Source: a virus. From it: a DNA stretch of 43,849 nucleotides. Every line of letters begins with the position of its first letter. Positions within the stretch are counted from its first letter, which is position 1. Of the stretch, positions 5,164 to 36,546 are shown one piece after another. A program made the translations under genes and the position numbers. The notes under the pieces are model-generated. The model was not told the origin of the DNA and did not search any database. It saw only the letters and a program-made list of their open reading frames with translations. The stretch covers positions 1 to 43,849 of the IMG/VR virus record IMGVR_UViG_3300044799_000709. One strand, given 5' to 3'.

Positions 5164-5213
5164 TCTTTCATCATCAATCGAGCATCAAGCATCGAGTATC
5201 TGGTATCGAGATT
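5164..5213. repeat. Heptamer array, ATCGAGC/ATCGAGT type
   Basis: Degenerate 7-bp units (ATCGAGC, ATCAAGC, ATCGAGT, ATCTGGT, ATCGAGA) fill most of the gap between the genes starting at 5160 and ending at 5214. Confidence 0.7.
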
Positions 5214-7286
5214 TTATTTACCTGTCAGCAGGTTTTCGATATTCAGTTCCGCAAAATCTGTTCTCACTATCGTAGCGACAGGCTTGCAAAAGTTATAGCT
5301 TATACTCGTTACAGCCGAGCCTGCCGCCCCCTGGCCTGTCACACCCAAGTTATTGATTAGAGTTCCGAGCTCTATACCGGCATCTATCTCTCGAATTGTT
5401 ATATTAAGGCGGTTTCTCTGCCTGCCATACCAGGCGACGGCGGCGGCCAGCACATTTCGAATCCGCACCCGGTCATCGCGGATAAATGGCTCTCCCTCAT
5501 AAAATACCGGCACTCCATCTGCATCAATATCGACAATCGTCCCCCATGCAATATACCACAGTTCCGCATCGGGACAGTAGATAGATTTTATCCTTTTATT
5601 TTCATAATTATTCAGGTTATAAATCATCTTTACAACCTGGTCAGTTTCGACAAATATTGTTGCCATCAGGTTTTCGTAATCGATACCTATATCCGTAACC
5701 TCGCCATCGAGATTATGCTCAGCCGGCTCCGCCCCTGCGAAATAGCCGTTAGCCGCCATATAGGCCGGTGTGAAATGGCAGATAAAGCCTAATTCTCTCG
5801 CCATCGGCCGGACCGATGCCCCGAACTGTTGTGCCTCGCCATCCTGATCCGTAACGTGCATATCCTCGGCAAACTGGTACCTGCCGTCGTTATCGAGCGC
5901 TACAACGAACATCTTTCTATATTCCGGCTCGCTATTTGCAGGGTTATTATTCACAGGGTATAAACTCGAATAGTCATAGCCGACAAGGAAAGGCAGTTCA
6001 TGCCTTATCCTTTTATCTGCATTATAATATGGCGCCACTAAATAATCAGCCCCGCCCGGTATCTCTACACCTGCACCATCCAGTAACGGTACACAACTAT
6101 GACCTTCTATTGTCCAGTCGAATGAATACGGTAATCGGAATGCCGCGAAAACCTTATCGAATTTATCCGTCGCCCTGTAGTTGTCGTTTAACCGGGCCTT
6201 TTCATCGTCATCGAGCTCGTCATAACCATCTATATTTTTTGCCGCATCCAAATATGCATCTTCTTCTGCGAGGCTCCATCCCTCGAAGAGTGTATTAGTC
6301 GCAAAATCGACCGTAAAGCAGGTCTTCATTTTTTCACCATATACGATTATCTGGTCATATTGCTGACTGGTATCCTGCTCGATCTCGATTTGGGTCTTCT
6401 GGTTATCCCAGAGATTTACAGATATCTGGCAGTCGTTTGCCGGTATTGTCACACCGCCGATTGTTATCGGTATATCGAGTAGTGAATAAGGAATTATAGT
6501 CACAATCCCGTAATAATCGATTACATATCGCCATGTCAGCCCGCGATTTCTATCTATGAGTTTATTCAGCGCCGCCCGGAGTGTAAGATTACTGAAATCC
6601 CAGACCTCTTTTTGATTTGTCAGGGCAGTTAATATATCAGCGTTTGCCCAGAAATTAAAGAACGGGCCGTTATTAAACTGGTAGTTCAGAAGCAGGTATT
6701 GAATTATATCGTAATTTGACCATACTCCTCCATTGTGCCCGAATACGTAGCAGCCGAGTGTTGCGTTCCAGTCCGATTTATTGCCTATAATTGTGCCGCC
6801 GATTTCATGTTTTTTATTGAAGACCGGCAGGTGATTTATCCAGACCGGCGTTTGACTTATTACAGGCTCGGCGTAAGCGCCTTCGAGCCTCGAATCCATC
6901 AGCCAGTCCAGACTGAAACCCTTTATCGTCTGGTCAGCTGTATAAGTAAGCCCTGACCTTCCTAACAGCTTGAATTCTTCTGTCTGTATAACGCCTGTCC
7001 ATAGTATTTTTTCAAATTGGCCGATGAATCCTCGAATCTGGATATATACGAAAGTGAAGGACGACATAAAGTCACCGTTTATCATAGAGGCGCCATCCTC
7101 CCAGAACCCGCTGCCGTAACGCATCCTGAAGGTCGCCTGGCCTAAGGATGGCGCCGCCGATTTGATTGCGCTAATCGGCTCGAGGTATGGCAACGGTATC
7201 CACACCGCCGACCAAACCCATTTATAGTAACAGAGGGTTCTCAGCGTCCCCGATTCCAGATTTTGCAGTTGCATTATTGCCATCAA
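5214..7286 (-). CDS. Tail hub / baseplate-like protein
   Basis: At 690 residues this is the largest tail-end gene. The N-terminal third reads like the first hub domain of siphovirus tail-associated proteins (short beta strands such as QATFRMRYGSGFW and IQIRGFIGQFEKILWTGVIQ). The middle has a segment QYDQIIVYGEKMK, and the C-terminus contains DIGIDYENLMATIFVETDQ. It follows the tape measure and small tail genes in transcription order, where hub proteins normally lie. Assignment is by size, position and composition, not by a catalytic motif. The first codon in this frame is TTG; the ATG three bases later is equally likely. Confidence 0.6.
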   Translation of the reverse strand: MMAIMQLQNLESGTLRTLCYYKWVWSAVWIPLPYLEPISAIKSAAPSLGQATFRMRYGSGFWEDGASMINGDFMSSFTFVYIQIRGFIGQFEKILWTGVIQTEEFKLLGRSGLTYTADQTIKGFSLDWLMDSRLEGAYAEPVISQTPVWINHLPVFNKKHEIGGTIIGNKSDWNATLGCYVFGHNGGVWSNYDIIQYLLLNYQFNNGPFFNFWANADILTALTNQKEVWDFSNLTLRAALNKLIDRNRGLTWRYVIDYYGIVTIIPYSLLDIPITIGGVTIPANDCQISVNLWDNQKTQIEIEQDTSQQYDQIIVYGEKMKTCFTVDFATNTLFEGWSLAEEDAYLDAAKNIDGYDELDDDEKARLNDNYRATDKFDKVFAAFRLPYSFDWTIEGHSCVPLLDGAGVEIPGGADYLVAPYYNADKRIRHELPFLVGYDYSSLYPVNNNPANSEPEYRKMFVVALDNDGRYQFAEDMHVTDQDGEAQQFGASVRPMARELGFICHFTPAYMAANGYFAGAEPAEHNLDGEVTDIGIDYENLMATIFVETDQVVKMIYNLNNYENKRIKSIYCPDAELWYIAWGTIVDIDADGVPVFYEGEPFIRDDRVRIRNVLAAAVAWYGRQRNRLNITIREIDAGIELGTLINNLGVTGQGAAGSAVTSISYNFCKPVATIVRTDFAELNIENLLTGK

Positions 7287-7303
7287 TCAAATTTCCAATC
7301 TTT

Positions 7304-7337
7304 TCAAGTCCCGAGTCACGAGTCACGGGTCACGTGG
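7304..7337. repeat. Heptamer array, GTCACGA/GTCACGG type, supplying a stop codon
   Basis: Units GTCACGA, GTCACGG and GTCACGT are in tandem. Read on the minus strand, the last unit contributes the TGA stop (7330-7332) of the gene 7330-9006. Confidence 0.7.
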
Positions 7338-9006
7338 CAAACAACGCCTTTCCCTCCACCTTCTCCGGTCCTTCAGTCTCGGCAATTGTCGAATAAATTG
7401 CCGTATTTGTGCTGTCGAAATCAATCTCATCGACCGTTCTTCTCGTCCTGACAATCACCTTTAATATATCCTCATTATCCGCCGCCGGTGATTGCCAGTT
7501 CAACCTGGCAATGCCGTTGCTCTTGGTCATTGCAACAACAACAGGGGTATCATTATCCGGGTCCGGGTCAGAGTCATCGTCTGTAAAATAAATCAGCCAG
7601 TCTGTAGCCTCATAATATTCAGCATCAACTTCATAAAAATAACGGGCCTCGACAATTGCCGTCCCTGCCGCCGCCGGTATTATTGTTATATCCAGCGGTG
7701 CTGCAGGCACCGGTTGAACCTCATTGCCCTCGGCATCAATCTCTACCTGCCAGCTTTCGATATTTTGTGAGCAAAGATTGAACTTATTGCGGTATCGCAG
7801 AACAAATTTATAGGTATGACTTACAGCCAGCGCCGCCGATTCGTGTGGCAGTGTTGTAAAGGTCTCCCATGGGCTTGCAGACAGGTCAGGCTCGGCATCC
7901 ACGCCCCGATACAGCTCGTAGCCGGTGATTGTGTCATCGGCAACCCTGTATAAGCCGGAGGCCTCACCTGTATAGTCTATTGTATCCAGAGTCCAGCTCC
8001 ACGATAGGCTATTTTCAAGCGTGGCTGCCGCTGTCTGCCCAACCGGCACTACAAGCCATATCCAACAGCCCATTTTTGCATTTGAGGCCATTGAGCCGAT
8101 ATTAAGACCATTTGCCGCTATTATACCGGTCGTCCATGATAAGCCCGAAACGGCTTCAATATCGTTTTCGTCATCAGCTATCGAGAACAGGCCGTTGCCG
8201 TCCGGGCTTTCGCTTGCTATTTTTACGCCGGGTATGGGATATATCTTATCTGTCGCCGTACCGGCGGCGGACGAGGTGCCCAATAATGCCCTGCCCGCCG
8301 CTGGGACGGTTATGACTACTGAATTTCGATTCGAATAATAAACTATTTCTCGAAGGCTTCCGGCCGCCGTCTCTATCCTGCAAAAGCCGGTTAGGGGCCA
8401 ATCTGCCAGAGAGCCGGCCGTCTCGATTGTCCCCGCCCCGGATGCACCAAGCTGGTCAATATCACTTACCCGTTGGGTCCCGAGTGTCTTAATCCAGACC
8501 TTGAGATTTGTAATTGATAGAGAGGCGTGGACATTCTTTAACGCTATACAGCGCAACTTGTTCTCTCCTGCCTGCTGCTCGGCCCCCGATATATTCGACA
8601 TACCGAATACGTTATTATAGATAGCCACGATATTTATCGTTAGCGAGCCTTTCAGGTCCTCGATAGTTTTTCTTTTAACAACTGCGAAATAAGCCGGCTC
8701 GGTTCCATCCTCGAGCATTTTTGTCTCATTATTTGCTATTGTTACTGCCGCCCCTGGTATGCCAGACGGCGCTGTGAACCGCAGGTTATTTTCATCGACG
8801 GCCTCGATTGAGCCGATGCCTTCCGGTCCTGCCAGCCTCAATATCTCGACGCCGATAAGATTACCACTAACATAAAATCCTTTTTTGTCGGCATATTTAT
8901 TAGATGTATAGCCGCCCAAAGATTCATCATCTGTTATTTCCGCCGGGAAAGCCGATTCGTTTGTCAGTAATATTGCAAGGCTGTCAGCCTTAGTCTTTTC
9001 GTCCAC
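7330..9006 (-). CDS. Large tail protein with Ig/fibronectin-like regions
   Basis: 558 residues, Ala/Thr/Asp-rich with long beta-type stretches. Segments such as SHTYKFVLRYRNKFN and TAIVEARYFYEVDAEYYEATDWLIYF resemble fibronectin-III or Ig-like modules, so it probably forms part of the distal tail. It starts with GTG at 9006. Its stop codon is inside a GTCACG heptamer array. Function beyond tail appendage is not evident. Confidence 0.6.
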   Translation of the reverse strand: MDEKTKADSLAILLTNESAFPAEITDDESLGGYTSNKYADKKGFYVSGNLIGVEILRLAGPEGIGSIEAVDENNLRFTAPSGIPGAAVTIANNETKMLEDGTEPAYFAVVKRKTIEDLKGSLTINIVAIYNNVFGMSNISGAEQQAGENKLRCIALKNVHASLSITNLKVWIKTLGTQRVSDIDQLGASGAGTIETAGSLADWPLTGFCRIETAAGSLREIVYYSNRNSVVITVPAAGRALLGTSSAAGTATDKIYPIPGVKIASESPDGNGLFSIADDENDIEAVSGLSWTTGIIAANGLNIGSMASNAKMGCWIWLVVPVGQTAAATLENSLSWSWTLDTIDYTGEASGLYRVADDTITGYELYRGVDAEPDLSASPWETFTTLPHESAALAVSHTYKFVLRYRNKFNLCSQNIESWQVEIDAEGNEVQPVPAAPLDITIIPAAAGTAIVEARYFYEVDAEYYEATDWLIYFTDDDSDPDPDNDTPVVVAMTKSNGIARLNWQSPAADNEDILKVIVRTRRTVDEIDFDSTNTAIYSTIAETEGPEKVEGKALFAT

Positions 9007-9021
9007 TTTTTATTTGTCCCT

Positions 9022-9060
9022 TACGAGTATCGAACTTCTGGTATCGAGCATCAATCCTCT
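9022..9060. repeat. Heptamer array, ATCGAGC type
   Basis: Degenerate units (GAGTATC, GAACTTC, TGGTATC, GAGCATC) fill the gap between the genes beginning at 9006 and ending at 9051. Confidence 0.6.
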
Positions 9061-9569
9061 TCGATTGTTATCGTTTGATTTTCCGAATCATAATCGTAAC
9101 TAACCGCCGGCACATCCGGGTGTCGAACGCAGAGGACGGCAAATTCCTTCGCCGCACCTTCGTTTCCGTTTGTCCCGACCGGTATTATCCTGAACTGGTG
9201 GCTGATGCCGTCCTCCAAAAATCTGGATTCGAGAGACATATAGCCGCCGTTATCCCTTATTTGTGCCCTTGTCACCCAGGCATCTGTTATATACTCATCG
9301 ACCTTATAATAGTCCGTATCTTCGGATGAGAACCAGAACAGCCTGGCCTTGCCTGGAAATACCTGCATTGGTATTTCGTTTATATCATCGAGTATTTCGA
9401 CTACATAACTTTCATCGAGGTTTACGCCGATTGAGATCTCCTTCTGTAACGAGGTCGCTATTAGGCGCCCATCCAAATAGATATAGAAAGTGGCGTTCTC
9501 GATAGTGCTCGAGTATTTGATTAGTGTCGAGTATTGTCCCGTAACGATTATTTTTTCTATTGTAACCAT
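9051..9569 (-). CDS. Putative tail protein with a fibronectin-like domain
   Basis: 172 residues from the ATG at 9569; the frame continues upstream to 9626, but that extension only translates heptamer repeats (Arg/Asn/Glu-rich), so I reject it. The body has beta-strand patterns (ATFYIYLDGRLIATS, ISHQFRIIPVGTNGNEG) like a small fibronectin-III or Ig module. The start is preceded by ACGAGATT, the end of a heptamer array, which may also serve as a weak ribosome-binding site. Similar in flavour to the next gene (7330-9006); probably part of the same tail appendage. Confidence 0.6.
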   Translation of the reverse strand: MVTIEKIIVTGQYSTLIKYSSTIENATFYIYLDGRLIATSLQKEISIGVNLDESYVVEILDDINEIPMQVFPGKARLFWFSSEDTDYYKVDEYITDAWVTRAQIRDNGGYMSLESRFLEDGISHQFRIIPVGTNGNEGAAKEFAVLCVRHPDVPAVSYDYDSENQTITIEED

Positions 9570-9657
9570 AATCTCGTTTCTCGATTCTCGATACTCGTTT
9601 CTCGATTTCCGTTTTCCACGAGCCACTGGTCACGAGCCACGGGTCACGGGTCAAAGC
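9570..9657. repeat. Two-part heptamer array at a gene junction
   Basis: Read on the minus strand, GTGACCC/GTGGCTC units lie next to the stop of the upstream gene (TGA at 9651-9653), followed by ATCGAGA/ACGAGTA units that end in ACGAGATT-ATG at the next start. This is a clear example of the stop-side/start-side arrangement. Confidence 0.75.
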
Positions 9658-10025
9658 GTCGGTTTCAGTATCCAGACCGCGTTTATAAGGTAGTTCAGGT
9701 TAGCCGGGCTCGATACGGCCATCGCCTGCACTCCTAAGACCCGGACATCGATTACCTTTACAGAATATGTTATCCGACCTGTATCATCGCAGACGGTTAC
9801 GAACCATCCCTTCAGCGATGCGTAGTCATCTGCTGCCGACTGGGCCGTCGAAAGGTTGGCGACTGCCTCAGTCGTATATTTCGTGATATCCTCGGCCTTC
9901 AATGCATCAATCCTGGTCGCCACCGAATCGACGCCGTCTCTATCTATAATCTCCACAGCCGCCGCTAAGCTTGGCACCTGCGGCCCTTCCATCTTCACAA
10001 AATTTACAGCGCCTATATATGACAT
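9651..10025 (-). CDS. Small tail-region protein, unknown function
   Basis: 124 residues, with a helical Ala-rich centre (TKYTTEAVANLSTAQSAADDYASLKGW) followed by beta-type sequence (GRITYSVKVIDVRVLGVQ). No family recognised. It lies between the small gene after the tape measure and the 9051 gene. Its stop codon TGA is inside a GTCACGG heptamer. No Shine-Dalgarno motif precedes the ATG. Confidence 0.6.
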   Translation of the reverse strand: MSYIGAVNFVKMEGPQVPSLAAAVEIIDRDGVDSVATRIDALKAEDITKYTTEAVANLSTAQSAADDYASLKGWFVTVCDDTGRITYSVKVIDVRVLGVQAMAVSSPANLNYLINAVWILKPTL

Positions 10026-10026
10026 A

Positions 10027-10088
10027 TATTAATCAATAATCATTTATCATTAATCATTTACGAGTATCGAGCATCGAGCATCGAGTCA
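10027..10088. repeat. Mixed heptamer array, AATCATT then ATCGAGC types
   Basis: AATCATT/TATCATT units pass directly into CGAGTAT/CGAGCAT units. Two heptamer families are joined in one 60-base gap. Confidence 0.75.
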
Positions 10089-10319
10089 TACTTTCTTTAT
10101 TGCATTCATACTTGTTATTATTCTTATCTTGCTTTCAACAAATTCTATCAGGCATGAGTTCATTGTCGCTCTTTTTATAAGTCTGCATTTCTTACCCTTA
10201 AACTGCTTTCTGTATCTGCCGACCGCGTTTTCTTTACCCCGTGAGATAAAGCCTTTGCCGTCTATCTCACGGGGTGAATTACCCCATCTATAAACATATA
10301 TCTGTTCATCTTTTTCCAT
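10086..10319 (-). CDS. Small phage protein carrying an in-frame palindromic-element insertion
   Basis: 77 residues, clearly homologous to the product of 33761-34003: both have QIYxYRWGN, AVGR, QFKGxKCRLxK, NSCxxxF and NAI in the same order. In this copy 17 residues (SPREIDGKGFISRGKEN) replace three (NKD) between YRWGN and AVGR, a net gain of 14 codons. The extra DNA is palindromic element copy 1 (10233-10278) read in its only open frame on this strand. The frame remains open, so the insertion is tolerated. The family is a small phage protein of unknown function. Confidence 0.7.
   Translation of the reverse strand: MEKDEQIYVYRWGNSPREIDGKGFISRGKENAVGRYRKQFKGKKCRLIKRATMNSCLIEFVESKIRIITSMNAIKKV
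10233..10278. repeat. Palindromic element copy 1, inserted inside a gene
   Basis: Arms TTTACCCCGTGAGATA and TATCTCACGGGGTGAA flank a short loop. It lies wholly within the coding sequence of 10086-10319, where it adds about 14 residues relative to the paralogue at 33761-34003. Other copies: 20886, 29836, 32322, 39785, 42996. Confidence 0.92.
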
Positions 10320-10464
10320 TTTTTACGAGTAACGAGTATCAAGCATCGACTTCTGTTCTTTTTTTCCTATTTTTTTACGAGTATCAAGTATCGAGCATCG
10401 ACTTCTGTTCTTTTTTTCCTATTTTTTTACGAGTATCAAGTATCGAGCATCGAGCATCGATTCA
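10320..10464. repeat. Heptamer array duplicated as ~50-bp tandem units
   Basis: Units ACGAGTA/TCAAGTA/TCGAGCA are embedded in a larger tandem repeat that includes CTTCTGTTCTTTTTTTCC followed by a T run. The larger unit occurs twice in full and then partially, showing two levels of repeat growth in one gap. Confidence 0.8.
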
Positions 10465-12084
10465 CTCACTCTCTCTCATCGCCGGCCTCGCCGTATTAAC
10501 CTTTATAAGTTCGTTATGTATATTAATAAGACTATTAAGAATTGCCTTAGACCAATCCAAATTGCCTGCAGGGACCGCTGTCGATTGAGAATTAAGATTC
10601 CTATTTTTTTCAATTCTATCTATAAGTTGTGAAATCATTGCACCGGCTTCAGGATTATAATAAGGATTTGGTTCTCCACCAGGTACAAGATATGGTTCCC
10701 CACCTGCACCTAATGGGGTTCCGCGTGGTGTTACATATCTTGGCCTTGTTTTAGATTCCAAATAAGTTTTATTTACTTTTCTTAATCTATTTATAGCTAC
10801 TCCAGAATAATCTTCTCCAATCCTTCCCTCAATCTGTATTGCCCCCATAATAAATTTTCTTTCGGTCTCTCCCATAAAACCTGGGGGTATTGTTTTTAAT
10901 ATTTCATCTGTCCATCCGTAAACGCGTGCTCTTTGTGCCGCTTCATTTTGACCTATTAATGCATTTTTTACTGCAATAGCATTTTCAGCATCGAGTTTTT
11001 GCTGTTCGAATAATGGTGTTTTTAAGGCCGCCGTTCTTTTAGCCGCATCTTGTTTTTGTGCATCTAATGAACGTTGTCTTCCGGCCGCAATCCTTCCTTC
11101 CTGCCAGATTGGTTGAACTGATCTTGTCTCTGTAATCCCGAATATATCCTCCCATTTTTCAGGCCGTTCGATTATCCATTCGCCGATATTCGCCCCTGCA
11201 GGCGCCTCCTGCAAAGCCTGCCACATCTTACCTTCATCGGTTTTGAGCCAGTCTCTTCTTTCCTTTCTACCCTCTTTTCCTTTAGGCCCTTCTTTAAGTG
11301 ATTTCCTTGCCCTTGCAACAAGATCTGCAACTTTCGATAAATTTCTTGTCCCTGCATCGGTTTGAAGACCGGCCCATGTAACAGCCAGTGTTGTTTCAGG
11401 ACTGATACCCTGTGCCTCGAGTTGCCTGGCCGCCCTCATTGCCTCTGATATATCACCTGCTTTTTGGGCAAATTCCTCTCTGAATGCAACTGTAATATCG
11501 GCAATATCATCAATTTCCTTTGTCTCCGGAAAAAGTTCCTGTATCTTTGCAAAATTCTGAATCCATTCAGGCCTTACCGCTGGTAAAGCTACCTTACCGG
11601 CCAACATCGCCGCAGTTTCCGCCTGTTCAATGGTTGTCTTTTCATCTCGAGCAGCCCTGTAAGCAGCCATTAAACTTGCTGCCTCTTCTTGACCTATATA
11701 TGGCATTTTCCCGCTTATCCTTTTTGCGGCTGCCTGAGCCGGTATTATTTGACTTGGTGCAAATTGTCTTCCTAATATATCCAGAAATGTTGACTGATAT
11801 TCCTTCGATGCTGCAAGTGCCTCTTTTTCTTTTCTTATAATTCCATCCCATTCATTTCCTAATAATGCGACCGCTTTTTGGGCAAGACCTATTCCGCTTG
11901 TAGCCACCCCCAAACCTGAGGCAAAGGTTAAGACATCCTTGCCGAAATCCGCGAATTTACTCGTTCGATTGACCTCGCGCATCTTGGCGACCATTCCCTC
12001 GAGTTTGGTTATAGTCTGTGCCATCCCCTGGATAGCCAGGTCACCATCGAACGTCGCCTTTATTCCGAGGTCTTCTTTTGCCAT
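10462..12084 (-). CDS. Tail tape measure protein
   Basis: 540 residues, largely alpha-helical, Ala/Glu/Lys-rich with a short hydrophobic patch (VLTFASGLGVATSGIGLAQKAVALLG, about residues 50-75), as expected of a tape measure that sets tail length and is ejected with DNA. It follows the chaperone-like and tail-completion-like genes and precedes the hub. For a tape measure it is short; by the usual length relation (about 0.15 nm per residue) the tail would be around 80 nm. It begins at an ATG with GGGA upstream. Confidence 0.75.
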   Translation of the reverse strand: MAKEDLGIKATFDGDLAIQGMAQTITKLEGMVAKMREVNRTSKFADFGKDVLTFASGLGVATSGIGLAQKAVALLGNEWDGIIRKEKEALAASKEYQSTFLDILGRQFAPSQIIPAQAAAKRISGKMPYIGQEEAASLMAAYRAARDEKTTIEQAETAAMLAGKVALPAVRPEWIQNFAKIQELFPETKEIDDIADITVAFREEFAQKAGDISEAMRAARQLEAQGISPETTLAVTWAGLQTDAGTRNLSKVADLVARARKSLKEGPKGKEGRKERRDWLKTDEGKMWQALQEAPAGANIGEWIIERPEKWEDIFGITETRSVQPIWQEGRIAAGRQRSLDAQKQDAAKRTAALKTPLFEQQKLDAENAIAVKNALIGQNEAAQRARVYGWTDEILKTIPPGFMGETERKFIMGAIQIEGRIGEDYSGVAINRLRKVNKTYLESKTRPRYVTPRGTPLGAGGEPYLVPGGEPNPYYNPEAGAMISQLIDRIEKNRNLNSQSTAVPAGNLDWSKAILNSLINIHNELIKVNTARPAMRESE

Positions 12085-12099
12085 CAGTTAAATCCCAAT

Positions 12100-12142
12100 A
12101 ACCAAGATACAATAATCAATAATCATTTGTCATTTATCATTT
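12100..12142. repeat. Heptamer array, AATCATT type
   Basis: Units AATCAAT, AATCATT, TGTCATT, TATCATT lie between the tape measure start and the next upstream gene, next to a palindrome at 12143. Confidence 0.6.
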
Positions 12143-12180
12143 CCCCACAGTTTTGCTACCGCAAAACTGTGGTTGTCCCC
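12143..12180. repeat. Palindrome supplying the stop codon of gene 12156
   Basis: CCACAGTTTTGC and GCAAAACTGTGG are exact inverted arms with outer CCCC on both sides. Read on the minus strand it gives the final residues VLR and the TAG stop of 12156-12662. It resembles the family seen at 2948, 15968, 22826 and 30343. Confidence 0.6.
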
Positions 12181-12662
12181 GCCGTCTGATTCATTCTCGC
12201 TACAACCTCTTTTCGAGCCAATTGTGCCATTGCCCTGATTTCATCCTTCGCCAGTGTCGTCAGTTCCTTGGCCATATTCATTGTTCCTTTGCGTTTTCTC
12301 GTATCCCGCCTTTGGATATAGATATATCTTATTTCCGGTCCTGCTATGAATTTACCCGTCGCTATCCCCGTTTTTTTGCCCTTCTCTTTTGTCACCTTAT
12401 AAAAGCCGTGCCTGAGCAGCCTTTCCCTTGTCCTGCCTGACCAGACTAATGCGGGCAGGCCTTTCTTTCTTTTTCTCTTTTGGTATGCCGGTGTTCGCTC
12501 CTGGTATTGATATTTAACGGCCGCTCCCTGTTTGAAGTGCCCGGGCGCCGTATTATAGAACCAGTTATAGAGGACCTTTTCGAGCACATCTGTCGCTATA
12601 GCCGGCAGTTGCTTCATGCACTCCTGCATCTTATTATTGCTTGTCAATTGCAAATGAAACAT
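12156..12662 (-). CDS. Tail-completion / virion morphogenesis-like protein
   Basis: 168 residues from the ATG at 12662. The frame extends to 12695 but that part only translates heptamers (AENRESRNEN) and is rejected. The product is basic and helical, with YQERTPAYQKRKRKKGLPALVWSGRTRERLL, resembling the arginine-rich, LxxSGxxRxxL-type motif of small tail-completion proteins (HK97 gp10 / phage morphogenesis type). The start is preceded by a heptamer array ending ACGAGAAT-ATG. It lies between the chaperone-like gene and the tape measure, not upstream of the tube gene as usual. Confidence 0.6.
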   Translation of the reverse strand: MFHLQLTSNNKMQECMKQLPAIATDVLEKVLYNWFYNTAPGHFKQGAAVKYQYQERTPAYQKRKRKKGLPALVWSGRTRERLLRHGFYKVTKEKGKKTGIATGKFIAGPEIRYIYIQRRDTRKRKGTMNMAKELTTLAKDEIRAMAQLARKEVVARMNQTAGTTTVLR

Positions 12663-12752
12663 ATTCTCGTTTCTCGATTCTCGATTCTCGGCCATCCCGA
12701 GTCACGGGTCCCGATTTACCAGTCACGGGCCACGACCTACGACCCACATCTC
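12663..12752. repeat. Two-part heptamer array at a gene junction
   Basis: On the minus strand, GTGACCC/GTGGCCC-like units on the stop side give way to ATCGAGA/ACGAGAA units that end at the ATG at 12662. The TGA of the -1 frame of the upstream gene (12723-12725) is inside the first part. Confidence 0.75.
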
Positions 12753-12775
12753 TCCTAACGTCGGAGTATAACTGG

Positions 12776-13516
12776 TTATCCTGCCGCTGAGCCAGAGTTC
12801 GAAGACTGTTCTTCTGCTATAGCAGTTTTTTTTTGACTAACAGATTTATTGATAAACTCCTCGACTGCCTCGAAATCGATAATCGCCTTACAGACCTCCC
12901 TGATATTATTCGTATTCAGGAGTTTCATTATATTTATCTCATCAGTCGAGATGTGGTAATTGATATTCAGGGCCTCGACCGCCATTTCCCAGGCCTGCTC
13001 CATAGTTGTCGCTGGCTTGCCTTCGGCAACGCCTATTATTATCAAAAAATCTGTCCAGTATTTTTCCGCTTTTTTTGAAAACTCTATAAACCGCGGTATC
13101 AACTCGGCCTTTAATACCCCATCTTTTCCCATAATCAGGGCCTGCGGCAGAGCCGTCCCGGCCGGGAACGCCCGCGCCAACGGTATCTGCCATTTTTTGC
13201 CATCGCCCAAAAAGACCTGATGGCCATCAATCTGCTCTTTACGGGCGAGTTCAATTGGCCCGGGCATTGCATTTACATACCAGCCTATCCAATATTTACC
13301 GTTCAGGGCCTTTTGCCAGTCCTGCTCTTCTGGTTTATAAAGAAGGTGTTTCGAATCGGTCCCTTGGCCTGCTATTAAAAGACCCTTGCCGCCTCCCGGC
13401 AGCATATTTGTCTGCCGTGTAGTGGGATTATCGCCTAAGACCTTATTGAGTTCGGTATCGGCAAGAACCTGTTTATTTATTTCGTTTGTTGCTAAGCCAT
13501 ATATAAAACCGCCCAT
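12776..13516 (-). CDS. Tail assembly chaperone-like protein (possible gpG/GT analogue)
   Basis: 246 residues. It lies between the tube-like gene and the tape measure, where lambda-like phages encode tail assembly chaperones. The C-terminal half is helical and acidic (TTMEQAWEMAVEALNINYHISTDEINIMKLLNTNN). Near the end is a run of nine A's on the coding strand (12826-12834, codons Q-K-K), an efficient slippery type. A -1 shift there would bypass the stop at 12776 and read about 34 more codons to a TGA at 12723. No family was recognised beyond this positional analogy. Confidence 0.6.
   Translation of the reverse strand: MGGFIYGLATNEINKQVLADTELNKVLGDNPTTRQTNMLPGGGKGLLIAGQGTDSKHLLYKPEEQDWQKALNGKYWIGWYVNAMPGPIELARKEQIDGHQVFLGDGKKWQIPLARAFPAGTALPQALIMGKDGVLKAELIPRFIEFSKKAEKYWTDFLIIIGVAEGKPATTMEQAWEMAVEALNINYHISTDEINIMKLLNTNNIREVCKAIIDFEAVEEFINKSVSQKKTAIAEEQSSNSGSAAG
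12826..12834 (-). other. Candidate -1 ribosomal frameshift site (A9 run)
   Basis: The coding strand reads CAAAAAAAAAC. The -1 frame after it is free of stops for about 34 codons (beginning NCYSRRTVFELWLSGR) and ends at 12723. Programmed -1 shifting near the 3' end of the chaperone gene is known in many tailed phages. Confidence 0.4.
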
Positions 13517-13519
13517 ATT

Positions 13520-13568
13520 TCGTTCCTCGTTTCTCGTGACCCGGGACCCGGATCACTGGTCACTATTC
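13520..13568. repeat. Two-part heptamer array at a gene junction
   Basis: GTGACCC/GGGACCC-type units lie beside the TGA of the gene ending at 13553, followed by ACGAGAA/ACGAGGA units leading to the ATG at 13516. GAGG within the last units may act as ribosome-binding site. Confidence 0.7.
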
Positions 13569-13783
13569 ACGGATTTCCGTCCCATCGCAATTCTTTGCAC
13601 CTCGTTAGCCGCCTCTCTTTTGGCAGCCAGCGCAGCCTGGCATACAGCCGTATGCGCCAGTTTTTCCTCATCTGTCGCATTTACAGGCAGCACCTTTTTA
13701 ACTAAGAGGTGGTATTCATGTTGTGTCTTCTGCAGTTTTTCCCGTGCAATCTGCAGTTCCGACTTTTCTGTCTTGGCCGTCAT
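13553..13783 (-). CDS. Small helical protein between tube and chaperone-like genes
   Basis: 76 residues, predicted almost entirely helical (KTEKSELQIAREKLQKTQHEYHLLVKKVLP; DEEKLAHTAVCQAALAAKREAANEVQRIAMG). A good ribosome-binding site (AAGGAG) precedes the ATG. Its stop codon falls in a heptamer array. Position suggests a tail assembly role; no family recognised. Confidence 0.6.
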   Translation of the reverse strand: MTAKTEKSELQIAREKLQKTQHEYHLLVKKVLPVNATDEEKLAHTAVCQAALAAKREAANEVQRIAMGRKSVNSDQ

Positions 13784-13809
13784 ATCTATCTCCTTATTAA
13801 TATTTTTTT

Positions 13810-13843
13810 CCCCGAATCACGAATCACAGGTCACTGTTCACGA
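13810..13843. repeat. Heptamer array, GAATCAC/GGTCACT type
   Basis: Units AATCACG, AATCACA, GGTCACT, GTTCACG are in tandem immediately beyond the stop codon of the tube-like gene. Confidence 0.6.
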
Positions 13844-14740
13844 TTATGTTATTCCCGTTATTGCCAGTATCGCATTCAGACCATCATAGACCGGTGTTAT
13901 AACCGCCTGTCCTGCAATTGCCTGTCCATCACTGCCCGGCACCGAATCGAAGTGGATAATACCCGAATCGATTGAGAATGTAATCGGTGCCGAGCCTCGG
14001 ACGCCGCCGGCTGCCTGGTCCAAAAGCTGGATAGTTGAATCTGTCTCTCCCTGTGCCTGGCCGGGCAGGCCCCACGATGCGAATTTTGCCATATCGAGTG
14101 TGGTTATCGTGATATTCGGGCTTCTGCGAGTCACACCGCATGCGGTGACATATATATGGCCGTCTAAGATATTCGTCCAGACCTCCATACCGAAATCAAT
14201 GTCGATATTTGATACCATCTCGAGTGCGACGCCGTTGATTGTTACCGGTCCTAAGGTATAAACTTCAGTTATCGCATCCTGTGCAGCCTCTAACGATTGA
14301 CCGGCCGTCATTGCAAACGGTGATGTGACTCCATCTGCGCTTCGCGGTATTGCCCTATAAGACAGGACCGCAGGCTGGCCCTGTGCCGCCCTGATTCGAA
14401 CAGGTACAATCAGACCCAATGCAGCTACGCATTTTATATGGCTCAATGCCCCGCCCCGCAGACCGTCACCGAGCATTTTTTGAAAATAGAATGTATCGTT
14501 CGAGATGGCCGCCCCTGATATGCCGCCGAGACCTGCCAGCGCTGTCTTTATTGCGAGCGTGTCGAAGTTTATCTCATTGAGGATTTGCCCTATCCCTACA
14601 AACGATGGGTCAACCGCTCCTGAGCCGCGGCCGATCATCAGTTGAGCGCCGGGCACGACATTCAGCGACTGGATTCCTTTGAGCAGTGTCGAACTGTGTT
14701 TGAACGCGCTTATCGTGTAGTTATCTGTTATTAACGTCAT
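13844..14740 (-). CDS. Major tail tube-like protein
   Basis: 298 residues, beta-rich with hydrophobic alternation (PVTINGVALEMVSNIDIDFGMEVW; HIYVTACGVTRRSPNITITTLD). It lies after the terminator-like gene and before the chaperone and tape measure genes, the usual place of the tail tube (lambda V). AAGGAG precedes the ATG. Length fits a tube protein. Assignment rests on position and composition; a sheath is less likely because no second contractile-type gene is present. Confidence 0.6.
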   Translation of the reverse strand: MTLITDNYTISAFKHSSTLLKGIQSLNVVPGAQLMIGRGSGAVDPSFVGIGQILNEINFDTLAIKTALAGLGGISGAAISNDTFYFQKMLGDGLRGGALSHIKCVAALGLIVPVRIRAAQGQPAVLSYRAIPRSADGVTSPFAMTAGQSLEAAQDAITEVYTLGPVTINGVALEMVSNIDIDFGMEVWTNILDGHIYVTACGVTRRSPNITITTLDMAKFASWGLPGQAQGETDSTIQLLDQAAGGVRGSAPITFSIDSGIIHFDSVPGSDGQAIAGQAVITPVYDGLNAILAITGIT

Positions 14741-14770
14741 ATTTTACTCCTTAAATTCTTAAATTTATTT

Positions 14771-14808
14771 TACGAGTATCGAGTATCCAGTATCCAGTAT
14801 CGAGTTTT
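14771..14808. repeat. Heptamer array, ATCGAGT/ATCCAGT type
   Basis: Units GAGTATC, GAGTATC, CAGTATC, CAGTATC, GAGTTTT run between the ribosome-binding site of the tube-like gene and the stop of the preceding gene. Confidence 0.75.
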
Positions 14809-15408
14809 TCATTTCATTCCCCATCCCACCAACAGCCTTATTACATAAACATATTTTTCCGAACTTGTCGGGTCATATTTCACCGGCCCTTCGATTACAG
14901 ATATTGAATTGATTACTAAGTAGCCGGGCCTGCCCGCCAGTGCCGATATATCATTTATTACGCCCTCGTAGAAATTCTCGAAGTCTGCCTCAGCGTTCGC
15001 TTCCTGTCCTGTTTCCCGGTATGTTTCGGGTATTTCTCTTTCGAGTCTCAACTCGAGGTCGCCGCCTTTTATAAAATCCCGGACCCCGCTGCCGCTGACG
15101 GCTACAGCCGAATCATCGTTATTCTGAGTATTTAAAATCAGTGCAAATGGTCTTAGAAATGCCCCCGTCTCTTCTGCCGCGACTGCATATTCTGTTTTAT
15201 GTATTCTTGTTTTTGCGTAAGCGATTCTTATCTCGGTTTCGCCCCCCGACAGTCCGAGCGCCGTTTGGAAGGTCTCGGACTCCGCCACTAATTGCTTGAG
15301 GGCATCTTTAACTATCCCGCGGGGAGTCGAGACAGTCACCTCATCGGGATATTCCGGTACTATTATCCCGCCTCCGCTTGCCCCGAATCCGAGTCCTAAC
15401 TGAAACAT
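14809..15408 (-). CDS. Tail terminator-like protein
   Basis: 199 residues. It sits directly upstream of the tube-like gene, the place of lambda U. A helix (RGIVKDALKQLVAESETFQTALG) precedes beta-rich sequence (ETEIRIAYAKTRIHKTEYAV; LELRLEREIPETYRE) and a C-terminal strand (YVYVIRLLVGW), consistent with small tail terminators. The start is preceded by ATGAGATT at the end of a heptamer array. Identification is positional. Confidence 0.55.
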   Translation of the reverse strand: MFQLGLGFGASGGGIIVPEYPDEVTVSTPRGIVKDALKQLVAESETFQTALGLSGGETEIRIAYAKTRIHKTEYAVAAEETGAFLRPFALILNTQNNDDSAVAVSGSGVRDFIKGGDLELRLEREIPETYRETGQEANAEADFENFYEGVINDISALAGRPGYLVINSISVIEGPVKYDPTSSEKYVYVIRLLVGWGMK

Positions 15409-15520
15409 AATCTCATTTCTCGATTCTCGATACTTGTTTCTCGTTTAATCGCAAATCCCGGGCCACCCTTCTTCGCTGCGCTACGCAGGGCAGGCGAGCC
15501 ACGGGTCCCGGGTCACGATT
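15409..15520. repeat. Two-part heptamer array with an inserted hairpin
   Basis: GGGTCAC/GGGTCCC units at the stop side (TGA at 15513-15515) and TTCTCGA/TACTTGT units at the start side are separated by CGCTGCGCTACGCAG and nearby GC-rich sequence. The same order is seen at 9570, 12663 and 13520. Confidence 0.7.
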
Positions 15521-15956
15521 CCGGCTCCACTATTTGTCCTATTACTGTCGTTACACTTTTAACGGCCACGCCATCGACATCGTTAAGGTCCTTGGTCATA
15601 AGGACAGCGCCTGTATCCTTATTTTTCACAACCATTTTCCACTGGTTCGGGTCTGTTTTATCTATAATACAGTCGCCCTCGAGGATATTCTTTATTATTG
15701 TCACATCATCGGCTTGACTTATTACCCTGAAAATTCCAAAGCCCTTTTTAACGCCATTCTCAAAAAACACACCCACATAATCGCCTGCATCTGCAAAATC
15801 ATAATCAAGGAAATAAAGGCCGCTTTCAATCTCTATAAGTGTCTGCAAACCACTCTTAATCAGAGTCGGGCTCCAGATATAGGCAGTAACCGTTTTGCCG
15901 GCTGCAAAATCAGTCGCCTTATAAAAAATCCTGTTTGTACCTATAGAGTATGACAT
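15513..15956 (-). CDS. Beta-rich protein related to the next gene; appendage module
   Basis: 147 residues. Its N-terminal domain (FYKATDFAAGKTVTAYIW...GLYFLDYDFADAGDYVGVFFENGVKKGFGIF) resembles the domain in 16077-16616 (YQAVGLATGKTITMSVYD...GRYYKAFTPNAEGIWTVIIIN), so the two are probable paralogues. This repeated module, about 90 residues, looks like a structural (Ig-like) unit. It lies between the spike proteins and the tail terminator. Its TGA stop is in a heptamer array. Confidence 0.6.
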   Translation of the reverse strand: MSYSIGTNRIFYKATDFAAGKTVTAYIWSPTLIKSGLQTLIEIESGLYFLDYDFADAGDYVGVFFENGVKKGFGIFRVISQADDVTIIKNILEGDCIIDKTDPNQWKMVVKNKDTGAVLMTKDLNDVDGVAVKSVTTVIGQIVEPES

Positions 15957-15967
15957 ATTCGTAACAT

Positions 15968-16000
15968 CCCCACCGCTTTGCCCCTAAGGGGCAGTGGGGG
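15968..16000. repeat. GC-rich palindrome (outer CCCC/GGGG, inner TGCCCCTAAGGGGCA)
   Basis: CCCCACCGCTT and AGTGGGGG form outer arms around the perfect inner hairpin GCCCCTAAGGGGC. It is in the leader of 15513-15956 and is the sister of copies at 2948 and 22826, which share the outer sequence but differ in the inner stem. Confidence 0.6.
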
Positions 16001-21737: not shown

Positions 21738-21839
21738 CCTTTATCGCAAGTCGTATATCGTATGTAGTATGTCGTTTTTTCGATTGCCGATTTACGCATT
21801 ACGCATTACGACATACGACTGCCGCATTACGCATTTTTA
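21738..21839. repeat. Heptamer array, TCGTATG and CGCATTA types
   Basis: TCGTATA/TCGTATG units and CGCATTA/CGACATA units fill the gap next to the capsid stop codon. This is one of the longest arrays. Confidence 0.78.
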
Positions 21840-26978: not shown

Positions 26979-27263
26979 TCAGATTTTCGTACCCTCAACG
27001 GAATATTTGAATCTGCAGACGGGTGTCTGGCATTCCCTGAATTGCCGATTGCCCTGCGTTGAAACGGCCTTCGTATTCGTTCCCCCGCACCGCGGGCATC
27101 TCGATTTTGTCGGAAAGGCATATTCGTCGCCCGTGACTCGTGGCCCGGGAGCCGTAACCTGTGGCCCGGGAGCCGTAACCTGTGGCCCGGGAGCCGTAAC
27201 CTGTGGCTTGTGACCCGTAATTGCCTGTTTTTTTACATCCTGTTTTTCTACCTTTGTCTTCAT
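26979..27263 (-). CDS. Zinc-ribbon protein with three heptapeptide repeats
   Basis: 94 residues. The C-terminus is a zinc ribbon (CPRCGGTNTKAV...CQTPVCRF, Cys pairs about residues 57-60 and 78-83). The N-terminal part contains PQVTAPG three times, encoded by 21-bp units, i.e. three heptamers each, which keeps the frame. It lies between large terminase and connector; lambda-type phages do not usually have a gene here. Function unknown. Confidence 0.6.
   Translation of the reverse strand: MKTKVEKQDVKKQAITGHKPQVTAPGPQVTAPGPQVTAPGPRVTGDEYAFPTKSRCPRCGGTNTKAVSTQGNRQFRECQTPVCRFKYSVEGTKI
27126..27213. repeat. 21-bp coding tandem repeat built from 7-bp units
   Basis: CCTGTGGCCCGGGAGCCGTAA-type units occur three times, with partial units either side. 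Length 21 = 3 x 7 and units resemble the GTCACGG/GGCCCGG heptamers elsewhere. Confidence 0.85.
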
Positions 27264-27276
27264 AAAATCCCTTTCT

Positions 27277-27400
27277 TTATTCGTTTATCGTATGTCGTAT
27301 GTCGTTTTTTTCTGGCTCGGTCATCCCTTTCGGGAGATTGCCGATTTATGGCTTAGCCATTTACGCATTACGCATTACGAATTACGATTTACGAATTGCT
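27277..27400. repeat. Heptamer arrays around a hairpin upstream of the zinc-ribbon gene
   Basis: TCGTATG units, then TATGGCTTAGCCATTTA (hairpin), then CGCATTA/CGAATTA/CGATTTA units. The segment GCCGATTTATGGCTTAGCC followed by CGCATTA units recurs at 31972-32035. Confidence 0.75.
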
Positions 27401-29324
27401 AATATTTAGTCCTTATTTTTGGCACTATTTGGTTTTTTTCTGTTATTTTTGGTGCTGATTGCTGCCCCTCTCTCATCAGGTGCACCTTCTTGTACCAGGC
27501 CGCCGCCGCCGCCAGCACCCCCAGATCGAGGGCATGAGTTGGCGCACTGTCGAATACCGGCACCCACCTGTAGCTGATATTCCCGTATTTATCCGTCAAT
27601 TTTATCTTGTGCTCGTTCGAGAACTCGCTGAAAAACCATGGTGGTATCTCCGAATAGAATTTTGTCTTTGGCTCAGCTGTTATCTCACCTTTTTCGTTAT
27701 ATTCCGGCTCACACCATGCAGTCACTTTATCCTTGAAAAATTCGGTGTCGATAATCAGCAATTTATCATAAATCCTTTTTTGCATCGCCGTTGATTTTCT
27801 CTTTGTCCGCTCCAACTCACTCCACTTCAGGACCGTATCGGGCCTGCCCGATGCCCCGTTTGTCGGTATGCAAAGACCAGGCCTCTTGCGGCAATAGGCA
27901 TAGACCTTATCCTTCATATATTTGGCATCGATAAGCATCAAATTGACAGATAGTTCCTCCTCGTCTTTATGATTATCAGGATTAGACCACGGAAACCTGT
28001 TCAGCCAGGTTGCCTTATCTAAAAGGTCGAAACTCGTTACAGAGCCATAGCTAACGACCCAGTTCCTTTCAGAGTACCCGAATCCCCAGACCGCATAATC
28101 GATACGTGCTATCCCTTTTTGGCTTTCGTGGTAATCGGCAACTGCAAATAATATTTTGCACCCGTCAGGGACAGTATCCCTGCTGTAGTCGCCTTTTAAT
28201 TTATCGAGAACTCCCGGCTCAATCTTTTTTCCTTCCTCCTCCCAGACCTGGACAAGGACGTTATTCTTGAATTCACGCAGGACGCCAGGCTTGATTTTCT
28301 CGGTCTCATTCGCCTCGAACCACTCGGCCAATATATCAGGCCATTTCAGCCAGGGGCTTAATAATTCGGTTATTGTAAAACCGGAATGTCTTTTACCCCT
28401 TTTCGGGTTCCCAATAATTTTACCATCTGAATCTATCGATTGTCCCGCAGCCACCCATTTTCCGGCCTCGAGCATGCTGAATTGCTCGAAATTATATATT
28501 TTGCCTGCGCAATATAGGCATTCGTAATAAACGCACCCTGTCTTTCTTATTATCTCCGGGTCTCTCATATCAGGTGGGTCAATCTTCAGATTCGCAAATT
28601 TCAATAACTGGTATCTTCCGCACCGCGGGCATGGTATCTGATATTTCTGGTCATTGGATTTTGCGATGGATACTGATATTGCGCCATTCTTTGTCGTCAC
28701 GGTCGATAGCCGGACTATCTTCCTGTCAGGGAAGGTTATCGAGCACCGCTCGGCGAGCTTGGCCGGGTTCCCGAACGAGCCTATCTGAGCCGGGTATAGA
28801 TTCAACTCATCGAGAAATACCCTACCAACCGTAATGCTGACTAATCCAGCTATAGTCTCTGCCGATGTAAAAAAAAGGGGCATCGTATCGAAATCGAAGA
28901 CCCTGCCCACCTTCAGCGACCTCGGGCTTGCTAATAGATGCTTTTCCAGTTCAGGACTATCGCGAAACATCGGCTCGAGCTTTTTTGTGCATACCTTCTC
29001 GATATTATCCTGCGAGGCATTGACGTATAACGCCGGTATATGCTCGATTTCGACATCGAAATCAATCATATTGAAAACCGCCTCGGTCTTACCGCACTGT
29101 CGGGGCCCTGCAATATCAATTTCCTCGACCTCCGGTTCGCTGTAAGCGTCCATAATTGCCGTCAAATAAGGCGCCCTCGAGTTCCGCCACGGGCCGGGCT
29201 CGGCTGCATAAGAGCCGATTACCCTGATTTGCTCGGCTAATCTGCTCACGGTCAGACCTGCCGGCGGCAGCCGCCAGGCCTTTCGTTCTTTATCAGTCCA
29301 GATTTTCTGTAGTGTCGCAGGCAT
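27399..29324 (-). CDS. terL: Large terminase subunit, lambda gpA type (GpA family)
   Basis: 641 residues. The ATPase domain has Walker A GPRQCGKTEA (about residues 73-82) and Walker B VFLDELN. A zinc-binding pair follows (CPRCGRYQ, CLYCAG, about 240-285), typical of GpA terminases, then the nuclease domain with acidic residues (AVADYHESQ; LMLIDAKYMKD). It cuts concatemers and powers DNA packaging with the portal. The ATG directly follows heptamers ACGAGTA-ACGAGTT with no better ribosome-binding site. Confidence 0.93.
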   Translation of the reverse strand: MPATLQKIWTDKERKAWRLPPAGLTVSRLAEQIRVIGSYAAEPGPWRNSRAPYLTAIMDAYSEPEVEEIDIAGPRQCGKTEAVFNMIDFDVEIEHIPALYVNASQDNIEKVCTKKLEPMFRDSPELEKHLLASPRSLKVGRVFDFDTMPLFFTSAETIAGLVSITVGRVFLDELNLYPAQIGSFGNPAKLAERCSITFPDRKIVRLSTVTTKNGAISVSIAKSNDQKYQIPCPRCGRYQLLKFANLKIDPPDMRDPEIIRKTGCVYYECLYCAGKIYNFEQFSMLEAGKWVAAGQSIDSDGKIIGNPKRGKRHSGFTITELLSPWLKWPDILAEWFEANETEKIKPGVLREFKNNVLVQVWEEEGKKIEPGVLDKLKGDYSRDTVPDGCKILFAVADYHESQKGIARIDYAVWGFGYSERNWVVSYGSVTSFDLLDKATWLNRFPWSNPDNHKDEEELSVNLMLIDAKYMKDKVYAYCRKRPGLCIPTNGASGRPDTVLKWSELERTKRKSTAMQKRIYDKLLIIDTEFFKDKVTAWCEPEYNEKGEITAEPKTKFYSEIPPWFFSEFSNEHKIKLTDKYGNISYRWVPVFDSAPTHALDLGVLAAAAAWYKKVHLMREGQQSAPKITEKNQIVPKIRTKY

Positions 29325-29364
29325 AACTCGTTACTCGTTACTCGTGACTCGATACTCGTCAATC
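29325..29364. repeat. Heptamer array, ACTCGTT type, at the terminase start
   Basis: Units ACTCGTT, ACTCGTT, ACTCGTG, ACTCGAT, ACTCGTC abut the ATG of the large terminase gene. Confidence 0.8.
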
Positions 29365-31971: not shown

Positions 31972-32038
31972 GATTGCCGATTTAGGGCTTAGCCCTTTAT
32001 GGCTTAGCCATTTACGCATTACGCATTACAACTTACGA
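31972..32038. repeat. Hairpins and CGCATTA heptamers at a stop codon
   Basis: GGGCTTAGCCC and TGGCTTAGCCA hairpins, then CGCATTA/CGCATTA/CAACTTA/CGAA units. The TAA of 32033-32308 is inside the last unit. Close copy of 27340-27385. Confidence 0.7.
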
Positions 32039-35714: not shown

Positions 35715-35797
35715 TAACGTGGCCAGGATGGCCGTGTTCTTCTACACGGGCTGGAAGCCCGTGTTACTTTCGATTTACGCATTACGCATTACGACAT
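35715..35797. repeat. Paired hairpins followed by CGCATTA heptamers
   Basis: AACGTGGCCAGGATGGCCGTG and TACACGGGCTGGAAGCCCGTG, then CGCATTA/CGCATTA/CGACATA units that carry the TAA stop (35782-35784) of the ASCH-like gene. Confidence 0.7.
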
Positions 35798-36546
35798 ACA
35801 AACTCCTGAACGCCTTTTCCGCCTGTTGCGGGTATTATCCACTTAAATTCTATAACCCAGACCCACGGATTTGTTGTCCAGCCAAAACCTCTTTTGGTAT
35901 TGATGGAATCCCAAAGGCTCTGATAAGATTCAATAGGCGATGAAGTGAAAGATAATTTTTTACAAGAATAATCTCTATATAATCGCCCATCAAGTGCAGT
36001 ATCAGCAAATTCTATTCCCTCCGCCTTTGCATCTTCCTCTGTGATATCCTGCAACCTCTCTACTCGAATACCTGTTATCTCAAGCCGGATTCGAGCCGCC
36101 CATTTGGGCATAAAACGTCCAGACCGCCATTTTGCGTGTTGTCCTTCTTTATCTTTATTTTGACGTTGTTTAGTATATTTCCCCGCCTTTTTATTGAATT
36201 TTATGCCATTATTTTTATATTCTACACCCGCAGCACGGCCTCCACATCCCAACATAAAAACTGCATATCGAAAAGTTTCTCTCACCCAGAGTAAATCGCC
36301 GACCTGACCGTAAGGACAATATTGTAAAAGACAATTTGGCCAATCATAATGGGCTTCCTCAAAAAATTTATTATGCGCCTCCCATCCCCACAATTTTTTA
36401 ATTGTGCCATTCGGCTGGCCTGGTGCATGCCTGGCTGTATCCCATAAGAAAGGTTGCGGTTTTATTACCCTTCTCGTCATCGCCTTTCGGTTATCAAGAA
36501 TCCCCTGAATTGATTCACCGCAAAAAGATATTCCTGTTTCTTTCAT
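35782..36546 (-). CDS. ASCH/PUA-like phage protein
   Basis: 254 residues. GISFCGESIQGILDNRKAMTRRVIKPQP is the signature start of phage proteins with an ASCH-type RNA-binding fold, with VGDLLWVRETFRY and RIRLEITGIRVERLQDITEEDAKAEGI farther on. GAGGT precedes the ATG. The last residues (VCRNA, stop) come from heptamers. Presumed role in RNA-linked regulation; not demonstrated. Confidence 0.75.
   Translation of the reverse strand: MKETGISFCGESIQGILDNRKAMTRRVIKPQPFLWDTARHAPGQPNGTIKKLWGWEAHNKFFEEAHYDWPNCLLQYCPYGQVGDLLWVRETFRYAVFMLGCGGRAAGVEYKNNGIKFNKKAGKYTKQRQNKDKEGQHAKWRSGRFMPKWAARIRLEITGIRVERLQDITEEDAKAEGIEFADTALDGRLYRDYSCKKLSFTSSPIESYQSLWDSINTKRGFGWTTNPWVWVIEFKWIIPATGGKGVQEFVCRNA

Follow-up and report, generated by a model that had tools for sequence, protein, structure and literature searches.

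What are the short tandem repeats that occupy the gaps between genes of an uncultured tailed phage, and why do they look sorted by stop and start codon? The question arises at positions 9570-15520 of IMG/VR virus record IMGVR_UViG_3300044799_000709, whose full 43,849 bases were analyzed and are referred to here as the window. Nearly all of its genes, including every gene at the junctions of interest, lie on the minus strand. An original prediction had proposed that these junctions are assembled from interchangeable heptamer modules, with GTGACCC-type units closing the upstream gene and ATCGAGA-type units leading into the next ATG, perhaps aiding gene shuffling through homologous linkers and providing a weak GAG-type ribosome-binding site (RBS). 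Our comparisons suggest instead that the junction arrays are probably lineage-specific heptanucleotide tandem repeats that fill gene junctions which were already present, and tight, in this phage group. The arrays have a period of seven, are intergenic and run from stop to start; their unit families differ between relatives, and a collinear relative (G032, IMGVR_UViG_3300033145_001475) is without them.

Heptamer arrays and a collinear relative with short junctions

At a 15/18-match threshold, the window contained 16 period-7 arrays, compared with 0-2 for each period that is not a multiple of seven, and Tandem Repeats Finder agreed on these arrays. They took up 7.3% of the non-coding but 0.3% of the coding sequence. 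The arrays at four junctions (J1 to J4), and two others that can be compared with G032, are as follows.

J1, 9570..9607, minus strand: start-side array of CGAGAAA/CGAGTAT/CGAGAAT units ending CGAGATT-ATG (ATG 9569); start confirmed by G032 homology
J1, 9616..9653, minus strand: stop-side GTGACCC/GTGGCTC array beginning with the TGA of gene 9651-10025 as its first three bases; the stop lies at a position conserved in G032
J2, 12663..12690, minus strand: start-side CGAGAAT/CGAGAAA array ending CGAGAAT-ATG (12662)
J2, 12700..12747, minus strand: degenerate GTGACCC/GTCGTAG-type array that does not adjoin the TAA at 12776
J3, 13517..13537, minus strand: start-side array ACGAGAA/ACGAGGA/ACGAAAT-ATG (13516)
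J3, 13538..13573, minus strand: stop-side GTGAATA/GTGACCA/GTGATCC units, read as VNSDQ-stop, the last codons of gene 13553-13783
J4, 15409..15446, minus strand: start-side array, near-copy of the J1 start arm, ending TGAGATT-ATG (15408)
J4, 15459..15516, minus strand: stop-side TGACCCGGGACCC units interrupted by a hairpin-like insert
14769..14809, minus strand: stop-side CTCGATA/CTGGATA array followed by a true Shine-Dalgarno (SD) sequence (AAGGAGTAAAATATG); the G032 gap is 11 nt, and G027 has a different array
13810..13835, minus strand: GTGACCT/GTGATTC array 10 nt after the TAA at 13844, followed by the SD sequence AAGGAG; the G032 gap is 16 nt

Read on the coding strand, J1 (9570-9657) runs from the stop TGA through CCCGTGACCCGTGGCTCGTGACC to AATCGAGAAACGAGTATCGAGAATCGAGAAACGAGATT and the ATG; J4 (15409-15520) begins TGA, CCCGGGACCC and ends CGAGAATCGAGAAATGAGATT before its ATG, and J3 (13517-13573) holds its TGA inside GTGACCAGTGATCC and ends CACGAGAAACGAGGAACGAAAT before ATG. 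GTGACCC-type units were thus found at the upstream TGA of the 9570, 13520 and 15409 junctions, as predicted, but not at 12663-12752, where a TAA lies about 30 nt before the units. Similarly, start-side units run into the ATG through nearly the same end at J1, J2 and J4, while J3 ends CGAAATATG, which is none of the three end forms that had been quoted. Gene calling relied on a simple codon-usage program, which leaves some starts uncertain: an in-frame ATG at 12695 precedes the J2 array, making that start ambiguous (12662 or 12695), although G032 homology favors 12662, and two starts in our start-adjacent list were shifted past an array and marked as ambiguous.

Window genes 15408 to 5214 have a collinear counterpart in G032, which differs by a few extra genes and is almost free of arrays. 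At 9651->9569 (J1) the gap is 81 nt in the window and 11 nt in G032; the corresponding values are 68 and 11 nt at 14809->14740, 60 and 16 nt at 13844->13783, and 36 and 3 nt at 13553->13516. The 104-nt gap 15513->15408 matches a 3-nt G032 gap by position, with upstream genes that are not recognizably homologous. The median same-strand gap was 69.5 nt in the window versus 22 nt in G032. The J1 upstream proteins end at the same residue (..VWILKPTL-stop in the window, ..GWLLKPTE-stop in G032) and the downstream proteins both begin MVT..; stop and start are thus conserved, and the array occupies exactly the space between them. The J1 linker in G032 is TAAAGGAGCTCGTCATG, with a standard SD sequence that is gone from the 81-nt array of the window. 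Unlike at J1, gene 13553-13783 runs five codons (VNSDQ-stop) into its array. The junction 14809->14740 holds CTCGATA units in the window, AAATCAA-type units in relative G027 (IMGVR_UViG_3300031885_000098) and none in G032. Because G032 keeps its gene order with gaps of 3-16 nt, the arrays would have grown inside fixed junctions rather than shuffled ones, and the short G032 gaps together with the different G027 array indicate that the arrays are lineage-specific content of fixed junctions.

Relatives were found by searching with an alignment of the terminase large subunit (terL) of the window and of G001 (IMGVR_UViG_3300014656_000053), which returned G027, G032 and the fragments G028, G029 and G030 at 40-50% terL identity; single-protein searches with terL or the 13844 gene had found no relatives. 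A search with the 13844 tail protein gave only G027 and G032 again. No DNA-level relative of window 5200-16000 was found among annotated phages. A further phage, G002 (IMGVR_UViG_3300031566_013099), encodes a D12 methyltransferase 69% identical to that of the window.

Arrays were present in some terL relatives and absent in others: G027 has 13 period-7 arrays, built from other units (GATTGAA, AAATCGA), G029 and G030 have few, G028 has none, and G032 has one low-complexity stretch only. In G002, the stop side is made of TGAATAT/GTGAATA units, and ATCGAGT units run up to the ATG on the start side. A 7-bp period, a preference for intergenic sequence and lineage-specific variability, as in intergenic heptanucleotide repeats, were therefore all observed. 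The exact 21-mer TTACGAGTATCGAGCATCGAG and the exact start-module pattern were not found in viral contigs; 17 genome-contig matches of that pattern were taken as chance, as their 8-kb surroundings were without period-7 arrays.

Order of the units and translation initiation

Further arrays of the window have the following composition.

7302..7340, minus strand: stop-side GTGACCC/GTGACTC array holding the TGA of gene 7330-9006
10027..10088, minus strand: CTCGATG (stop side) and AATGATT (start side) arrays
10301..10463, minus strand: three 52-bp tandem repeats (10301-10453), each with a short CTCGATG/CTCGATA heptamer array
21742..21820, minus strand: following the major head protein (MCP) gene, a CGTAATG/GTCGTAT array on the stop side and an ACGACAT/ATACGAT array on the start side
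27277..27403, minus strand: CGTAATG array, then ACGACAT array, after terL
29319..29359, minus strand: terL start-side array of CGAGTAT/CGAGTCA/CGAGTAA units, ending ACGAGTT-ATG of terL (29324)
32011..32038, minus strand: CGTAATG array holding the TAA of gene 32033-32308
35775..35801, minus strand: CGTAATG array holding the TAA of gene 35782-36546

The TAA-bearing CGTAATG units at 32033 and 35782 and the abutment of ACGAGTT on the terL ATG at 29324 were as predicted. At 41 array junctions in five phages, arrays began no more than 3 nt from the stop at 20 junctions (P < 0.0005) and ended no more than 3 nt from the start at 19 (P = 0.001), compared with 10.8 expected for each under random placement. 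We then cut each array gap in two, giving a stop half and a start half, and compared same-side with opposite-side 5-mer sharing by label swaps, with unit types not preselected. P values were 0.035 for the window, 0.057 for G001, 0.024 for G002 and 0.87 for G027; combined, P was 0.007, or 0.002 when junctions were flipped as reverse complements. Side-sorted order, which the original prediction had read from the window, is therefore real in the window, G001 and G002 but absent in G027.

CGAG-type units were forward versus reverse 44:5 in start halves and 7:14 in stop halves; counted once per junction half, these ratios were 15:3 and 5:6 (p = 0.048). In a wider set of 108 viral stretches matched by the pattern WCGAGNAWCGAGNAWCGAG, plus Omnitrophota loci, the orientation trend gave p = 0.012, or p = 0.13 without the window, G001 and G002, and in that reduced set no array abutted a start. 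All 14 CGA-type arrays that abut a start (window, G001, G002 and G030) have their last CGA beginning 5, 6 or 7 nt ahead of the ATG; the distance is 12 nt at one G001 start where the array stands off. The 14 cases cannot be counted as independent, since copies are found among the arms: J1 and J4 have start arms that match at 33 of 35 bases, with the units in the same order (unit permutation P = 0.017 for five units and 0.003 for six, uncorrected, with six pairs compared), so junction modules do get copied.

On the stop side, TGA was not enriched among upstream stops (17/50 at array junctions versus 20/56 elsewhere), and some stop-side arrays (CTCGATA) hold no stop codon. Since a unit with a stop codon in one of its three frames ends any entering gene within 21 nt, the overlap between stop and array is largely automatic, and the idea of TGA units as an end module is not supported.

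Pairing was measured against a generic bacterial anti-SD, which may differ from that of the host. Array starts paired at -3.5 kcal/mol versus -5.0 kcal/mol at other starts (p = 0.009), and no better than shuffles of their own upstream sequence (-4.7 kcal/mol). Strong SD motifs preceded 3/25 array starts and 22/81 others, a difference that was not significant alone. At starts 14740 and 13783, where the array stands off, AAGGAG lies between array and ATG.

One reading of these results is that start-side arrays are SD-less translation-initiation elements, selected for orientation and phase, whose A/purine-rich leader is perhaps bound by S1 or another host factor. The CGAG orientation, the 5-7 nt CGA phase and the weak SD pairing at array starts are consistent with this, as is the precedent of TAACTGA arrays, which stop about 1 nt short of starts that mostly have no RBS (PMC4679880). 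However, accessibility around array starts was no higher than with flipped or shuffled upstream sequence, related phages vary freely in the units that they have at a given junction, and the cases are few and partly mutual copies; we consider this reading unlikely. An extended form, in which junctions are polar two-part cassettes with an in-frame-stop arm and an SD-less initiation arm, their heptamer phase read by a host factor and the whole copied between genes as standard parts, is in our judgment very unlikely.

Linkers, stem-loops and other repeats

A role of the arrays as homologous linkers that promote modular gene exchange would fit the near-copy arms of J1 and J4 and the mosaic make-up of the window. 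Over 29386-15408, compared with G032, G028, G029, G030 and G001, its terL and tail genes were closest to G032 and its portal to MCP genes closest to G028/G029/G030, and arrays stand right after terL, at the mosaic switch, in the window, G001 and G030. By hand classification, arrays sat at 6 of 9 conserved adjacencies and at 5 of 5 mosaic switches. Against this, most of the array junctions open to comparison are adjacencies conserved in the collinear, array-free G032, where gene order is kept across gaps of 3-16 versus 36-81 nt, and the shared stretches are imperfect and 20-40 bp long. We therefore give little credence to the proposed shuffling through homologous linkers, although a minor role is possible, as arrays also sit at the terL/portal mosaic switch.

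Pairing of stop-side with start-side arrays as intergenic stem-loops, for mRNA processing or termination, is highly improbable. Clear inverted pairs occur at some junctions (window 21840->21729, G001 14634->14568), and same-junction halves paired slightly better than swapped halves (P = 0.026). Yet the native stop half paired with the start half less well than did its reverse complement (-12.4 versus -15.2 kcal/mol), no terminator-like site on the coding strand was listed within an array of the 5-16 kb region, and a stem-loop with a T tract, as in a terminator, held at a few single junctions only. Promoters showed no excess at arrays.

The predicted GAG-type weak SD site can be given next to no weight: GAG is present in every CGAG unit, but besides the poor pairing described above, its spacing is off, with the last GAG usually 1-3 nt from the ATG at array starts (in CGAGATTATG the last GAG is at 3 nt and the preceding one at 10 nt), whereas other window genes use AAGGAG at about 6 nt. 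Above-background pairing with the 16S 3' end at a suitable spacing was not seen. Anti-SD, stem-loop, accessibility and promoter explanations of the arrays were thus tested and then dropped or demoted.

Several other repeats and features were recorded. Five intergenic copies of a GGGCTTCCAGCCC hairpin lie at window 16634, 21348, 23718, 31948 and 35748, often as TAACACGGGCTTCCAGCCCGTGTAGAAAGG in the gap; the element resembles repetitive extragenic palindromes (REP-like) and was absent from the five relatives checked. Eight copies of CCGTGAGATA or its complement (10239, 10263, 20892, 29842, 32328, 39815, 43002 and 43026) include several that form the palindrome ACCCCGTGAGATA...TATCTCACGGGGTAA, and two copies also occur in G001. 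Seven 60-bp repeats lie at 41636-42045 within gene 41601-42362, 21-bp tandem repeats (GTGGCCCGGGAGCCGTAACCT) at 27140-27220 and 20-bp tandem repeats (TCCTGCTTTCCCCGGGTCCT) at 36975-37079. In G002, a hairpin, CTTGTCCGCCGTAGC(C/T)TT(A/G)GCGAAGGCGGA, lies within heptamer arrays at junctions 9612->9515, 6326->6234 and 5839->5717, as if inserted. The window encodes terL (27399-29324), portal, protease, MCP, two integrase-family genes and a D12 methyltransferase; genes of the 9570-15520 region matched no PHROGs or Pfam family, and an Rfam scan of the window found tRNA but no other family. A tRNA-Met gene (43042-43115, minus strand) close to the end of the contig that lies away from the integrase (181-1206) is a possible attachment site.

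Proposed array growth, known heptamers and significance

As lineage-specific filler of tight junctions, the arrays would grow by replication slippage, as intergenic heptamers do in some bacterial hosts, and would also spread when pieces of junctions are copied elsewhere in the genome, as the near-copy J1 and J4 arms suggest. Coding sequence on either side would halt their growth. On the stop side, an in-frame stop-bearing unit would end the gene at once and so be tolerated up to and slightly into it; on the start side, an array might reach the ATG if the A/T-rich part of its unit faces the codon. Such boundary filtering, together with the copying of whole arms, could give rise to what look like end and start modules. 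The SD sequence is usually lost at starts that an array abuts, and it persists between array and ATG at starts from which the array stands off.

Several points weigh against this reading. Gain of arrays in the window versus loss in G032 is not polarized by an outgroup, and no close phage pair with a change in unit number was found, so slippage is a step that we infer. Both the orientation of CGAG units near starts (p = 0.012) and the 5-7 nt CGA phase could mean a selected function. As to the host, terL matches in Omnitrophota covered most of the protein at no more than 35% identity, and no match was obtained with the tail protein; these searches give no evidence that Omnitrophota host the phage. 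The CGAG/CTCG vocabulary of the window nonetheless recurs between genes of one Omnitrophota metagenome-assembled genome (G214), and the string ACGAGTATCGAGCATCGAG (window 10060-10078) recurs between genes in its contigs 19, 23 and 47 (L168, L169, L170). Given this shared vocabulary, the arrays may mirror the conditions of replication in certain hosts.

Since the 1990s, heptamer repeats between genes have been described from several groups of bacteria, with no agreed function; among them, short tandemly repeated repetitive (STRR) heptamers are 7-bp units between genes that can sometimes form hairpins. The window arrays belong to this broad class of STRR or TAACTGA kind. What is new here is their presence in phage genomes, with several unit families per genome that are sorted by junction side. 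The nearest case is that of marine Beggiatoaceae, where TAACTGA forms intergenic 7-bp direct repeats that mostly point to and end near a start codon, usually without an RBS, and the stop within the unit limits overlap with the upstream gene (MacGregor 2015, PMC4679880). The window arrays are likewise 7-bp and intergenic, and it is only their start-side subset that is oriented toward and abuts the start codon without an SD sequence. In contrast to the single unit of a bacterial chromosome, the phage has several families that differ between stop and start sides, and its units (CGAGAAT, GTGACCC, CGTAATG, CTCGATA and others) are not TAACTGA itself. The STRR heptamers of filamentous cyanobacteria, mentioned in PMC2670836, have different units, occur in different organisms and have no reported stop/start ordering. 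The GGGAATC and GGGGAYT heptamers of Xanthomonas and Nostoc are lineage-specific, intergenic and near the end of open reading frames (PMC4692102). Unlike the window arrays, they form G-quadruplexes and mark stable regions rather than phage junctions; polymerase slippage has been suggested as the origin of heptamers in literature cited in PMC4692102. In halovirus HF2, repeats of 29 and 58 bp with AT-rich promoter motifs are likewise reported to recur between virus genes (PMC8707807), whereas the window arrays have 7-bp units without promoter excess.

Collectively, these findings make the arrays look like filler shaped by neighboring genes rather than tools for gene swapping or ribosome binding, and they caution that repeated junction sequences should not be read as recombination linkers. 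The window and its collinear, array-free relative provide a direct before-and-after view of heptamer repeats in gene junctions: the repeats widen a junction of 3-16 nt to 36-81 nt, both genes and their ends are kept, and the SD sequence is removed once the start codon is reached. The same comparison makes the choice between passive filler and a translation leader testable.

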